Shown here: positions 10,818 through 19,034 of the stretch, one piece after another
How the letters are laid out: each line of letters starts with the position of its first letter
Position numbering within the stretch: position 1 is the first letter of the stretch
IMG/VR virus record: IMGVR_UViG_3300044620_000008
Coordinates: 1-20,427 of that record
From: a virus
Strand: one strand, 5' to 3'
DNA length: 20,427 nt
Program-made: the position numbers and the translations under genes
Notes under the pieces: model-generated
Told to the model about the DNA's origin: nothing
Databases searched by the model: none
The model's input: only the letters and a program-made list of their open reading frames with translations

Positions 10818-11345
10818 ATGACTATGCAAAGTGCTGAAAAAGTAAAACCAGAGGACGCTCTTGGTGTCAAACAATTATTTGATTATTTGAATTACGACCC
10901 ACAAACGGGTGTATTCACATGGAGGGTTGACATGCAAAGAGGTGGTAAGGCTGGCAATGTAGCAGGAAATGTGAATTGCCGTGGATACAGGTCGATCTGG
11001 ATTAATGGCCTGCAATTTCTTTCCCATAGAATTGCGTGGGCAATGTCTTATGGAGAGTGGCCGGAATTGGACATAGACCACATTAACGAAAATAAGTCGG
11101 ATAATAGGATTTCCAATCTACGCCATGCGAGTAGATCTGAAAACATGTTCAATAGAGGCAAGAACAAAAACAACACCTCTGGAGTTAAGGGTGTTTCGTT
11201 TTGTAAATGCACTGGCATGTGGAGAGCGCAAATGACGCTCAACAGAAAGCCAGTAAATATCGGAAGATTTAAAACCAAAGAAGAAGCCTCTGAAGCGTAC
11301 CTTAATAAAGCCAAAGAGTATAGAGGGGAGTTTGCTAAATGCTAG
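10818..11345 (+). CDS. Free-standing HNH endonuclease with AP2 domain
   Basis: A 175-residue homing endonuclease-like protein. Residues 23-36 (YLNYDPQTGVFTWR) are the usual N-terminal strand motif. The HNH core follows, with H70 (LSHRIAWAM) and LDIDHINENKSDNRISNLR (D87, H88, N96, N100). Residues 121-172 (SGVKGVSF...W-RAQMTLN...IGRFKTKEEA) are an AP2 DNA-binding domain. Such proteins cut related phage genomes lacking the gene and spread by repair. It sits between small and large terminase, a frequent site for such insertions, and its end overlaps the terL start by 7 bases. Its base composition (about 33-40% GC in sampled lines) is far below terS, consistent with transfer. The catalytic residues are intact, so it may be active. 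Confidence 0.92.
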   Translation: MTMQSAEKVKPEDALGVKQLFDYLNYDPQTGVFTWRVDMQRGGKAGNVAGNVNCRGYRSIWINGLQFLSHRIAWAMSYGEWPELDIDHINENKSDNRISNLRHASRSENMFNRGKNKNNTSGVKGVSFCKCTGMWRAQMTLNRKPVNIGRFKTKEEASEAYLNKAKEYRGEFAKC

Positions 11346-16170: not shown

Positions 16171-16208
16171 GAGAAGGTCACAGGTTAAAATCTGTGGCCT
16201 TTTCTTTT
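16171..16208 (+). terminator. Strong factor-independent terminator
   Basis: A 13-pair stem, GAGAAGGTCACAG (16171-16183) with CTGTGGCCTTTTC (16192-16204) including two G-U pairs, has an 8-base loop. The T-rich 3' arm and TTTT at 16205-16208 give the U tract. Together with the UUCG terminator upstream it insulates the non-coding block and capsid genes from packaging-operon transcription. Confidence 0.85.
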
Positions 16209-16227
16209 GGCATCACCAACGGTTAAG

Positions 16228-16249
16228 TTGACTTACACTTGACTTACAC
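16228..16249 (+). repeat. Tandem direct repeat TTGACTTACAC x2
   Basis: Two perfect 11-base copies lie head to tail at 16228-16238 and 16239-16249, followed by a partial third unit, TTGTGAC. An 11-base period places them on the same face of the helix. TTGACT resembles a -35 box, and TTTAAT at 16258-16263 resembles a -10 box, but the spacing (13 or 24) is wrong for sigma70. TTGACTT recurs at 16919 and 16942 on the far side of the block. Binding by a phage or host regulator is inferred. Confidence 0.8.
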
Positions 16250-16251
16250 TT

Positions 16252-16275
16252 GTGACCTTTAATTAAGACAGTCAC
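16252..16275. promoter_or_regulatory. Dyad GTGAC-N14-GTCAC around TTAATTAA
   Basis: GTGAC at 16252-16256 and GTCAC at 16271-16275 flank the self-complementary TTAATTAA at 16259-16266. The position just after the TTGACTTACAC repeats suggests an operator or start region for transcription of the block. The dyad is short and may be chance. Confidence 0.3.
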
Positions 16276-16289
16276 CTCGCTTGCGCTCG

Positions 16290-16700
16290 ATCAAACTTCC
16301 CTCCGAGAGGAAAAAGACACACCAACCTCTTAGGGCTGTGTTAACAAGCCCTATGATTCGTGGTCTACCATGTGGAACCCCTATTTCTAGAGACCCAATT
16401 CGGTTGTGCGCTCTTCCCCCCGCTTCGGATTAAAGCCTATAACGGACGCTGGATGATAGGTTGGAATCAGAGCCAGCCGCGAGCCTAATGGTAGTGAAGT
16501 ATTCTCATACCCCTTTGCCCGTCCTAATGGCTGTCTCGTTCCACTAGGAACCAGCACCTTGAAAAACAAAGGGCTAGCACGAGTCGAAGTAGGAAAACTC
16601 GTGCCAGCCCTAGATCCATTGCTCTACGCGCCGGAGGGGTGAATAGTGACGTGAATCCTACTTCGTCGTCAACGCCAAAATACACTATTCCGCCCCCTAG
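16290..16700 (+). ncRNA. Candidate large structured non-coding RNA
   Basis: Helices that can be read by eye: CCTC/GAGG (16300-16310); TAGGGCT/AGCCCTA (16331-16337 with 16347-16353); CTACCAT with ATGGTAG (16365-16371 with 16488-16494); AGCCTAT with ATAGGTT (16434-16440 with 16456-16462, one G-U); GCTG-GTTCC with GGAAC-CAGC (16530-16555, 4-base loop); a 15-position stem at 16570-16611 with one mismatch; and GAATAGTG with CACTATTC (16641-16648 with 16683-16690), extended by AGGGG with CCCCT. The last two hairpins can kiss through 10 bases. TAGGGCT at 16331 can alternatively pair with AGCCCTA at 16606-16612, closing the whole domain. Boundaries and strand are guesses; no known RNA family (tmRNA, RNase P, 6S, tRNA) was recognised. 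Confidence 0.42.
16570..16698 (+). other. Two hairpins with complementary loops (kissing-loop candidate)
   Basis: Hairpin A: AGGGCTAGCACGAGT (16570-16584) with ACTCGTGCCAGCCCT (16597-16611), 14 of 15 pairs, 12-base loop. Hairpin B: AGGGG (16635-16639) plus GAATAGTG (16641-16648) with CACTATTC (16683-16690) plus CCCCT (16694-16698). The loop of A contains CGAAGTAGGA (16585-16594) and the loop of B contains TCCTACTTCG (16656-16665), exact reverse complements over 10 bases. A small ACG/CGT helix (16649-16651 with 16667-16669) would present the B sequence at a loop apex. Confidence 0.7.
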
Positions 16701-16718
16701 TCAATAGGAAATCTTTAA

Positions 16719-16797: not shown

Positions 16798-16898
16798 GAC
16801 GCATGTTTTTGCGTCAAATCTTGTGACAAAAAGTACCCAGTATTTGTCACGGTTTTGTCAGAAAAACTACCCATTATTTCTGACATAATGCGTCAAAT
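16798..16898 (+). repeat. Repeated TGCGTCAAAT with alternative pairing to GACGCA
   Basis: TGCGTCAAAT occurs at 16810-16819 and again at 16889-16898, flanking the two tandem hairpins. GACGCA at 16798-16803 can pair either with the first copy (local hairpin, 6-base loop) or with the second copy (enclosing the two hairpins). This is the form of a two-state RNA switch, though function is inferred. Confidence 0.6.
16823..16884 (+). repeat. Two tandem hairpins with matching loops and different stems
   Basis: First: GTGACAAA (16823-16830), loop AAGTACCCAGTA, TTTGTCAC (16843-16850). Second: GTCAGAAA (16857-16864), loop AACTACCCATTA, TTTCTGAC (16877-16884). Both have 8 perfect pairs and 12-base loops that agree at 10 of 12 positions, while the stems differ at compensating positions. 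Six bases separate them. This looks like RNA structure or a duplicated protein-binding hairpin upstream of the scaffold and capsid genes. Confidence 0.75.
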
Positions 16899-16948: not shown

Positions 16949-16955
16949 CGCTCAT

Positions 16956-16970
16956 CGCCACCGCAGGGCG
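16956..16970 (+). other. GC hairpin before the scaffold start
   Basis: CGCC (16956-16959) pairs with GGCG (16967-16970) across a 7-base loop, and outer CGC/GCG (16950-16952 with 16978-16980) could extend it. It ends close to the ATG at 16987 and could affect scaffold translation. Only weakly supported. Confidence 0.35.
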
Positions 16971-16986
16971 TTAACCAGCGTACAAA

Positions 16987-18027
16987 ATGACTAATACCAA
17001 TCAAGCTAACGCCGAAGCTGAAGAATCGGTGGACAATATCTCATTCGAGGAGCTTATCGCTCGGAGAATTGGGGAAGCAACTGCACCAGAGGAGACTGAA
17101 GAGGAACCCCAGGATGCCGAGGAGACCGAAGAAACCGAACCTGCCAGTCAAGATGACGAGGAAGAGGTGGAGGAAACCGAGGAAGAATCCGAGGAGGAAT
17201 CAGAGGAAGCCGAGGAGCAGTCAGACATAGACCTGTTGAATCTCTCACCGGAGCAGATCCAAGAGCTTGCCAAAAAAGGTAAGAGTCGCCTCCTTCAACG
17301 GATTGGTGAACTCACCGCCCAAAAGCGAACCTTAGAGGAAAAGCTTGCGGCTCAACCGCAGATGACTCGTCAAGTCGAGGAGAATGAGATCCCAGAGGCT
17401 ATCCGTAAATTGGAGAGCTTCGAGAACCTCAAAGACTTCTACGACGAAATGACGAAGACTCTAGAGTCAACGGACGAGATCTTGGATGAACACGAAGACT
17501 ACGGCCCCGATGACATCATCACCGTTGGCGACAAAGAGTTCACCAAGCGTCAAATTCGCAAGGCCAACAGGAACGCCAAGGAAGCACTAACCAAGTACAT
17601 CCCAGCCCAACAGCAGCAGTTGATCAAAGTTGCCCAGTTCGGGGAGATGTCCAAGCAGTACTCCGAGGCAGCACGAAAAGAAGTTCCAGAGATCCAAGAC
17701 GAAGAGTCCGAGATTGGGAAGAACTACAAGGTGCTAGTCGAAGATCCCCTAGTTTCCAGAGTGAAACGCGAAATCCCCGAGATTGGGATGCAAATTGAAT
17801 ACATTCTTGCTCATGCGGCAAGGTCTATCTTTGGAAAGAAAGCTAAGGCTATCCAAGCTGGAGCTGGGAACAAGTTGAAGGTGTCGCCACCCGCTTCCCC
17901 AGTTGGATCTGGTTCGGTTAAGTCTGGTTCAAATGCCAAAGCAAAGGTCAAAGACGCATACAGCAGGTTTGAAACGACTGGTTCGGTCGATGATTGGGTT
18001 GCCTCACGAATCGCTAAGTTAAAATAA
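16987..18027 (+). CDS. Scaffold / capsid assembly protein
   Basis: A 346-residue protein immediately before the capsid gene. Residues about 31-79 are an extreme Glu/Asp/Thr/Ser run; residues about 85-125 are a likely coiled coil (LSPEQIQELAKKG...RIGELTAQKRTLEEKL). The middle is helical and charged. The C-terminus (about 300-346) is Ser/Gly/Lys-rich and ends in a basic helix, DDWVASRIAKLK, the place where scaffolds usually touch the capsid shell. Acidic, coiled-coil proteins in this position guide prohead assembly and then leave. There is no protease motif, so loss by exit rather than self-cleavage is likely, though unproven. The start has no Shine-Dalgarno sequence (GCGTACAAAATG). Confidence 0.82.
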   Translation: MTNTNQANAEAEESVDNISFEELIARRIGEATAPEETEEEPQDAEETEETEPASQDDEEEVEETEEESEEESEEAEEQSDIDLLNLSPEQIQELAKKGKSRLLQRIGELTAQKRTLEEKLAAQPQMTRQVEENEIPEAIRKLESFENLKDFYDEMTKTLESTDEILDEHEDYGPDDIITVGDKEFTKRQIRKANRNAKEALTKYIPAQQQQLIKVAQFGEMSKQYSEAARKEVPEIQDEESEIGKNYKVLVEDPLVSRVKREIPEIGMQIEYILAHAARSIFGKKAKAIQAGAGNKLKVSPPASPVGSGSVKSGSNAKAKVKDAYSRFETTGSVDDWVASRIAKLK

Positions 18028-18047: not shown

Positions 18048-19034
18048 ATGAGTATCTCAAATACCTATCAACCAAATGCGCCCCAAGCCAAACTCGGCAC
18101 GGGTTCCGCTATCTCCAACCGCGAGGATCTCAGCAACGAGCTGACCCTCCTTGCTCCCGAAGAAACCCCGCTCCTTAGCCTTTGCGCCAAGGGTAAAGCA
18201 AGTGGTACTTTCAGCGAGTGGACTGCCGATGTTCTTTCGGCTCCTTCGACTGCTGGTATCTCTGAAGGTACGGATGTGACTGCCTTTGATGACAAGTTCG
18301 CTAGCCGCGCTCGTCTTGGCAACTACACCCAGATCTTCCGCCGCGACTACATCGTGTCGAACCTGCAACAAGCCGTTAGCTCCGTTGGCCCCGCAAACGT
18401 TGCACAAGCTGAAGCCAAGTCGATGCGTGAACTGAAGCGCGATGTCGAAGCCGCTATCTGCTCGGACAATGATCGTACCGTTGAAAACGGTGCTGGCACT
18501 CCATACGCCCTCCGTGGTCTTGGTGACTGGCTCGACTCGGCTGGCCCTTCGGATGTTCCTGCCGCTTATCGTACGCCTTCGGCTTCGATCCAGCTCAGTG
18601 CTCCTAACGAGACGACCTTCAACGACATCATCGCGTCGATCTACACCGTCAATGGCGAGGCCAATAACCTCACCCTTATCGCTGGTGTTGCTCTCCGCAA
18701 GGTGATCAGCAACTTCACCCGTTCGTCTGGTGCTGCTACCTCGGAAGCCGTTTACACGGTTAACCAAGACGCATCCGCTAAGAAGGTCACTCACGCTGTT
18801 TCGATCTACGAATCGGACTTCGGCATCGTCAATGTGATCAACGGCAACCCTGCCTGTATGCCCTCCGCTAACCGTGGTTATGTGGTGAATCCGAAGTATC
18901 TCGGCTTCAACACCCTTATCCCGATGGGTTCGACCCGCCTTGAGAACCAAGGTGGTGGCGAGCGTGGCTTCGTGGACATGGTTGGTACGCTTGTTTGTAA
19001 GCACCCTGGCGCACACGGCAAGATCGCTTACTAA
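18048..19034 (+). CDS. Major capsid protein, SU10-type HK97 fold
   Basis: A 328-residue major head protein. The N-terminal pattern (REDLSNELTLLAPEETPLLSL, then FSEWTADVL...GISEGTDV) and the following RLGNYTQIFRRDYIVS segment match the SU10 major head protein family of short-tailed phages, an HK97-fold branch. Position after an acidic scaffold and before a small beta protein fits. Codon choice is distinct: frequent TCG, C-ending codons and higher GC than the ejection genes, as expected for the most highly expressed product. That bias also creates a 327-codon antisense open frame (18057-19040), which is a shadow. The start lies behind an AT-rich leader (AAATAATCATT) without a Shine-Dalgarno sequence. 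Confidence 0.88.
   Translation: MSISNTYQPNAPQAKLGTGSAISNREDLSNELTLLAPEETPLLSLCAKGKASGTFSEWTADVLSAPSTAGISEGTDVTAFDDKFASRARLGNYTQIFRRDYIVSNLQQAVSSVGPANVAQAEAKSMRELKRDVEAAICSDNDRTVENGAGTPYALRGLGDWLDSAGPSDVPAAYRTPSASIQLSAPNETTFNDIIASIYTVNGEANNLTLIAGVALRKVISNFTRSSGAATSEAVYTVNQDASAKKVTHAVSIYESDFGIVNVINGNPACMPSANRGYVVNPKYLGFNTLIPMGSTRLENQGGGERGFVDMVGTLVCKHPGAHGKIAY

Follow-up and report, generated by a model that had tools for sequence, protein, structure and literature searches.

Here we describe a previously unlisted RNA element in the portal-to-capsid interval of a family of uncultured phages, in which two hairpin loops stay complementary while their sequence differs between phages, the behaviour to be expected of an RNA lock-and-key and not of a chance pair of hairpins. 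Comparison of relatives brings out complementarity, covariation and hypervariability of the loops, together with a terminator-like hairpin and a promoter-like element. The RNA family is new to Rfam, occurs at nearly a hundred uncultured phage loci and shows unusually strong natural covariation.

The stretch of DNA analysed (hereafter “the window”) comprises 20,427 nucleotides of IMG/VR record IMGVR_UViG_3300044620_000008. The element sits there in an 890-base gap that holds no convincing genes and is bordered by a portal-side gene cluster on one side and by probable scaffold and major head protein genes on the other:

16177-16210, plus strand: terminator-like hairpin of the portal gene cluster, recognised from sequence
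16987-18027, plus strand: probable scaffold gene, the open reading frame (ORF) directly 5' of the major head protein gene
18048-19034, plus strand: major head protein gene (phrog_1328, E 7e-54)

The scaffold gene is named, as a probable assignment, from its position and acidic N-terminus, and a PHROG search of this ORF gave no match. A terminator-like hairpin recurs near the corresponding place in relatives, whether the RNA element is present or absent. Compared with shuffles, the whole noncoding gap has folding z-scores of -6.5 on the plus strand and -5.0 on the minus strand; a tRNA search of the window found none. Several neighbouring features are recorded here in their own right. A conserved plus-strand element lies immediately 5' of the scaffold gene (16953-16980; e.g., ATCGCCACCGCAGGGCGTTAACCAGCG, GCACCGCCGAGCGTAAATGGCGTT) and in the same place in most relatives, including phages that lack the kissing-loop RNA; it is possibly a leader hairpin. 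The stretch from the RNA promoter to the scaffold promoter holds a pair of similar inverted repeats whose loops are related (TGTGACAAAAAGTACCCAGTATTTGTCA and TGTCAGAAAAACTACCCATTATTTCTGACA; 16819-16885), and the L019 group carries TTTTCTCCGAC repeats in the corresponding region. Farther away, an ORF just 5' of the terminase gene (10818-11345) resembles, by eye, an HNH plus AP2-type homing endonuclease.

The core of the element is a short module of three hairpins, all assigned here to the minus strand for reasons given below:

16570-16611, minus strand: hairpin A, terminator-like and GC-rich, its stem pairing 16570-16584 with 16597-16611
16585-16594, minus strand: loop A kissing sequence (the plus strand reads CGAAGTAGGA)
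16615-16635, minus strand: small hairpin C (TCC 16615-16617 with GGA 16633-16635), a helix of covariance model R1
16647-16671, minus strand: hairpin B, the 5'-terminal hairpin of the predicted RNA, stem 16647-16651 with 16667-16671
16656-16665, minus strand: loop B kissing sequence (the plus strand reads TCCTACTTCG), covarying with loop A

Hairpin A forms 14 of its 15 stem pairs, the sole mismatch being an A·C when read on the plus strand. In hairpin B, TGACG (16647-16651) pairs with CGTCA (16667-16671) inside an outer GAATAGTG/CACTATTC helix, and 92% of cells are paired across 33 distinct rows. Hairpin C is longer in relatives (e.g., CCAG/CTGG, GCTAA/TTAGC). A preliminary description of this DNA had picked out hairpins A and B and a 10-base match between their loops; re-reading of the sequence recovers both hairpins where it placed them, and CGAAGTAGGA in loop A and TCCTACTTCG in loop B are indeed exact reverse complements over 10 bases at those positions.

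Relatives were sought among viral contigs (IMG/VR); protein scans with capsid and portal sequences, together with scans for DNA motifs from the gap, yielded about 240 loci. Covariance model R1 describes the three hairpins and leaves the loop-loop pairing out; its seeds were 16 sequences picked at loci where the module had been recognised beforehand, and because the pairing is absent from R1, loop complementarity can be tested free of that bias. R1 finds the module at 95 of the ~240 loci (several contigs being represented by more than one locus), comprising 65 distinct modules and 35 distinct loop pairs. Long contigs carry one sense-strand copy of the module each in 15 of 21 cases and none in the other six. 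Where the element is missing, the gap spans only ~200 nt, the portal, scaffold and capsid genes are kept and R1 matches nothing in the contig; the element is therefore an accessory insert. Among annotated phages, DNA similarity was limited to a single weak 39-base match, and in the nearest named phage, C75C1 (capsid 54% identical), the gap is only 56 nt and contains no element. Bacterial genomes searched for the T2 motif (see below) and for a capsid relative yielded neither. Pattern matches at L227, L230, L232, L239, L240, L241 and L243 were set aside as chance hits in unrelated, apparently coding sequence.

Across these relatives the pairing between the loops is retained. At least seven contiguous pairs are kept in 34 of the 35 distinct loop pairs, with 8–11 in most, and the loop pairs comprise ~20 different 8-mer specificities. 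The mean Watson-Crick run of 8.6 over the 35 pairs compares with 4.13 ± 0.25 when partners are permuted (0 of 20,000 permutations as high), which bears out the earlier contention that the match exceeds chance. In a 33-row alignment, changes occur on both sides at all nine kissing pairs and 97.3% of kissing cells pair, as against 33–46% in controls in which the whole structure was slid, a test that leans towards the structure since its register is the best match, unlike the permutation test. Six extra T4 contigs, which stood outside model building (i.e., out-of-sample), were fetched by a motif ~200 nt away; five of the six reach the module, and there the loops are complementary and of two different types. 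The preliminary description had named independent change of the two loops, with loss of complementarity, as the outcome that would count against it; homologues show the opposite, the single clear exception being L100/L180, in which loops A and B belong to different types; recombination or chimeric assembly may have produced this contig.

The loops are hypervariable beside near-invariant stems. Specifically, of 43 module pairs with no more than 5% difference in the rest of the sequence, 27 carry different loops (a count inflated by pairs involving L100); between the window and L008 everything but the loops is the same, while 56% of their kissing positions differ. Summed over pairs in the 33-row alignment, the kissing helix shows 1 one-sided against 113 two-sided changes, and stem A 37 against 52. 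Such a pattern points to the loop sequence itself as a specificity tag, or to exchange of the two loops as a unit. One could also suppose that no selection is involved, with template switching between the inverted repeats keeping the loops identical; such mutational homogenisation would account for loops that change together almost without intermediates, but stem A, an inverted repeat of greater length and closer spacing, goes uncorrected, with its many A·C cells (G·U on the minus strand), and we regard it as most improbable.

The same comparison bears on the strand. Read on the plus strand, stem A contains 86 A·C cells vs. 9 G·U, and as an A·C on the plus strand is a G·U on the minus strand, hairpin A pairs better as minus-strand RNA; there, 330 of 330 cells of the inner ten pairs are standard (100%), and 10 of 10 tested pairs have changed on both sides. 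In stem B the strand signal is mixed (23 G·U vs. 16 A·C on the plus strand). Transcription-like signals flank the module on the minus strand:

16677-16704, minus strand: sigma70-like promoter, TTGACT-16-TATTTT, with a predicted transcription start near 16670
16562-16569, minus strand: U-rich tract 3' of hairpin A (minus strand TTGTTTTT)

In relatives, the minus strand carries TTGAC-16/17-TAnnnT or a close variant 1–2 nt 5' of the module, directly before hairpin B, which overlaps the predicted first transcribed bases. At least 9 of 12 consensus positions match in 60 of 72 distinct loci (0.3 in shuffles), and the other 12 have at least seven matches, many reading TTGCGT-17-TAGATT. At the other end, the 12 nt after hairpin A on the minus strand include 6–9 T in all 74 distinct loci, so that on this strand hairpin A joins a GC-rich stem to a U tract in the manner of an intrinsic terminator; a simple terminator scan overlooked it, the loop being longer than 8. 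The short module is thus very likely read from the minus strand, and the predicted unit is likely a ~110-nt minus-strand RNA (16670 to ~16562) running from the promoter through hairpins B, C and A in that order.

These observations revise the preliminary description in part: a structured RNA at the locus stands, while the strand on which it was read does not, the minus strand (i.e., opposite the capsid genes) being the most likely. A large structured RNA on the plus strand, or a packaging element of the capsid operon, could draw on the strong folding of the plus strand and on the adjoining capsid genes; the A·C and G·U counts of hairpin A, the minus-strand promoter and the U tract all speak against it, and relatives with ~200-nt gaps keep portal, scaffold and capsid genes without the element, so packaging does not need it. 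We consider such a plus-strand role very improbable, and found no evidence for the DNA packaging element that had been suggested. More generally, the strand of a structured RNA spotted by eye needs testing before it is interpreted.

The position of the promoter also invites an explanation at the level of DNA, by which the loops would be identical inverted protein-binding sites near a minus-strand promoter, kept identical by a regulator whose specificity changes. That the sites form exact inverted repeats, adjoin the promoter and have almost no G·U cells in the loop helix would fit. On the contrary, both sites fall exactly in the loops of conserved hairpins, and operators as a rule allow mismatches and occur at further places, yet a search of ten long phage contigs for a second target of the loop 9-mers revealed no consistent further site. 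We rate this explanation as improbable.

Beyond the terminator-like hairpin, the sequence is modular. In the window it is followed on the minus strand by a structured domain with two crossing helices:

16259-16561, minus strand: T1 structured domain, 3' of the terminator, replaced by an unrelated T2, T3 or T4 in relatives
16365-16371 with 16488-16494, minus strand: T1 helix of seven pairs, four with changes on both sides
16322-16328 with 16458-16464, minus strand: T1 helix of seven pairs, covarying

As these two helices cross, they make a pseudoknot. Four unrelated domains occur behind the same short module: T1 at 35 loci (including the window), T2 at 40, T3 at 15 and T4 at three plus later finds; L067 and L071 have the module with intact loops and no recognisable T domain. 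L144 (T1) and L152 (T2) share the same loops and stem A and differ in their domains, and hence domains have been exchanged at the terminator. Read-through of hairpin A would give a product of ~410 nt that includes one of the four domains. The T domains are likely read from the minus strand as well, a call that for T2–T4 rests on fewer data than for T1. On that strand T1 folds better than shuffles in the window (z -3.0) and L046 (z -2.5), not in L144, and the apical loop of its hairpin 16331-16353 is a GNRA in most distinct second-clade variants; against this, the helix 16331-16335 with 16349-16353 has 10 G·U cells on the plus strand. The best T2 helix has 11 A·C and 0 G·U on the plus strand, and shuffle folding of T2–T4 gives no clear strand preference. 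Owing to helices that cross, RNAalifold did not resolve the whole T domains into one clear fold. Identities as a group I intron or as RNase P were also weighed for these domains and abandoned, there being no match to Rfam.

A number of loci have an ORF 3' of the RNA on the minus strand, one with a T5orf172/MUG113 match and others HNH nuclease-like by eye (WHIDHI...NLQPLWAEDN motif) and without a Pfam match. Other features of this region were noted in passing. A family of 161–163 aa ORFs in the same position and on the same strand (L008, L003, L013, L015, L020 and L076) looks, by eye, like a sigma-factor-like helix-turn-helix and has no Pfam match. A recombination endonuclease VII-like gene is inserted on the plus strand beside the RNA module in L042 (3266-3784; PF02945, E 1e-22) and L010 (3117-3635). 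In T4 (L065, L070, L076, L268-L276), a minus-strand hairpin with a TTCAATC loop and a stem that varies resembles a tRNA T-arm by eye, and short direct repeats (TTGACTTACAC; 16227-16250) at the far end of T1 are common to T1 and T2 phages.

This architecture admits a reading in which the helix between the loops does no more than shape or multimerise a ~410-nt phage RNA, the T domain is the working part and the loops drift by compensatory change. The covarying T1 pseudoknot, the GNRA apical loops, strong folding family-wide, the combination of a conserved 5' module with an exchangeable domain, and the location in phages would all suit it, and a purely structural kissing helix would covary too. 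However, a structural helix under ordinary drift usually leaves wobble intermediates, and here the loops evolve much faster than the adjoining stems with almost no one-sided intermediates; moreover, the terminator-like U tract parts the module from the T domain, and L067 and L071 keep intact loops with no such domain behind them. We hold this structural role, the main rival to the reading that follows, to be possible but less likely than not.

We tentatively lean, with confidence somewhat short of even, towards an accessory minus-strand RNA unit whose loop pair controls transcription past hairpin A, in the manner of the autoregulated termination of P4 CI and IsrK. In outline, a sigma70-type promoter would start an RNA on the strand opposite the capsid genes, and the nascent RNA would fold hairpin B at once, then hairpin C and finally hairpin A; together with the U-rich tail, hairpin A would act as an intrinsic terminator and release the ~110-nt RNA. 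Some transcripts would pass on into a T1–T4 domain and, in some phages, into accessory genes. Loops B and A would form a strictly Watson-Crick helix of 8–11 pairs, either intramolecularly or by contact of the short RNA with a nascent, neighbouring or read-through transcript, and this helix would set how often transcription passes hairpin A, the long RNA thereby coming under the control of the short one. Being the part that varies, the loop pair would serve as the specificity tag that determines which phage's RNA recognises which. Transcription, termination, action in trans and the effect on read-through are inferred. Several points weigh against this model. Hairpin B overlaps the predicted first transcribed bases, the strand signal of stem B is mixed, and no convincing gene lies downstream of the element on the minus strand of the window, although the T domain might itself be what is made; pairing alternatives 3' of the terminator are weakly supported (mean run 4.55 vs. 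4.09).

A further and rather unlikely extension is that these RNAs serve self-recognition among phages. One short RNA would carry both a key (the loop of the 5' hairpin) and a lock (the loop of the terminator hairpin), coordinated loop change would have produced the ~20 specificities, related phages in one cell could tell their own transcript from a competitor's, and the exchangeable structured RNA domains would be the controlled output. Hypervariable loops on conserved stems, strict Watson-Crick pairing and exchange at the terminator make it a testable question whether loop identity serves self vs. non-self recognition or autoregulated termination.

The Rfam search that the preliminary description had proposed returned no gathering-score match in Rfam 15 for the window or 16 relatives (module and T domains), and its suggestion of a phage-encoded structured RNA is supported, with a conserved loop-loop helix and no Rfam family. 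Weak matches to psRNA14, ctRNA_p42d, CsrC, RefA9 and Scr3202 fell far below gathering scores, mostly over terminator-like hairpins, and were rejected. The published literature that we searched yielded no description of the element. It belongs among phage structured or regulatory RNAs, as an RNA family absent from Rfam.

Among known systems, phi29 pRNA is likewise a phage RNA with complementary loops, though its loop helix has 4 pairs vs. 8–11 here, and it is part of the packaging motor, whereas some relatives lack the present element though their capsid genes are the same. ROOL and GOLLD have structural or multimerising kissing loops, and GOLLD combines a conserved 3' part with a variable 5' part (PMC12286853). 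Our element resembles them as a phage-encoded structured RNA with kissing loops and with one conserved and one variable part; it differs in being shorter and in having its conserved part at the 5' end, and while GOLLD and ROOL often lie near tRNA genes in phages, the window has none. Their models (RF02032 and RF03087, respectively) matched nothing at E up to 5 in the window or up to 3 in L070 and L052. In HK022 put RNA, two stem-loops bind RNA polymerase and suppress termination (PMC9378689). Our predicted phage RNA likewise opens with hairpins, with no put-like sequence shown. Closer in evolutionary behaviour are incompatibility RNAs of the ColE1 RNA I/RNA II type, in which loop-loop recognition diversifies with complementarity kept, just as loop sequences change here with pairing retained; those are sense and antisense RNAs, however, whereas both loops here lie on one strand of one short RNA, and no replication origin is seen.

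The closest parallel in organisation is offered by the CI RNA of satellite phage P4 and by Gifsy-1 IsrK, in which one promoter gives short and read-through forms and the transcript contains complementary stretches; P4 CI RNA pairs with its own leader, causing termination, and a terminated short RNA that acts on its own read-through transcript is also known (PMC4825925). Our search found no sequence relation or Rfam match to either. Relatives conserve promoter-like and terminator-like sequences that would allow short and read-through forms here too. The likeness lies in complementary stretches under selection within one predicted transcript, and the difference in where those stretches sit, for here they are the loops of a 5' hairpin and of a terminator-like hairpin, and they are hypervariable.
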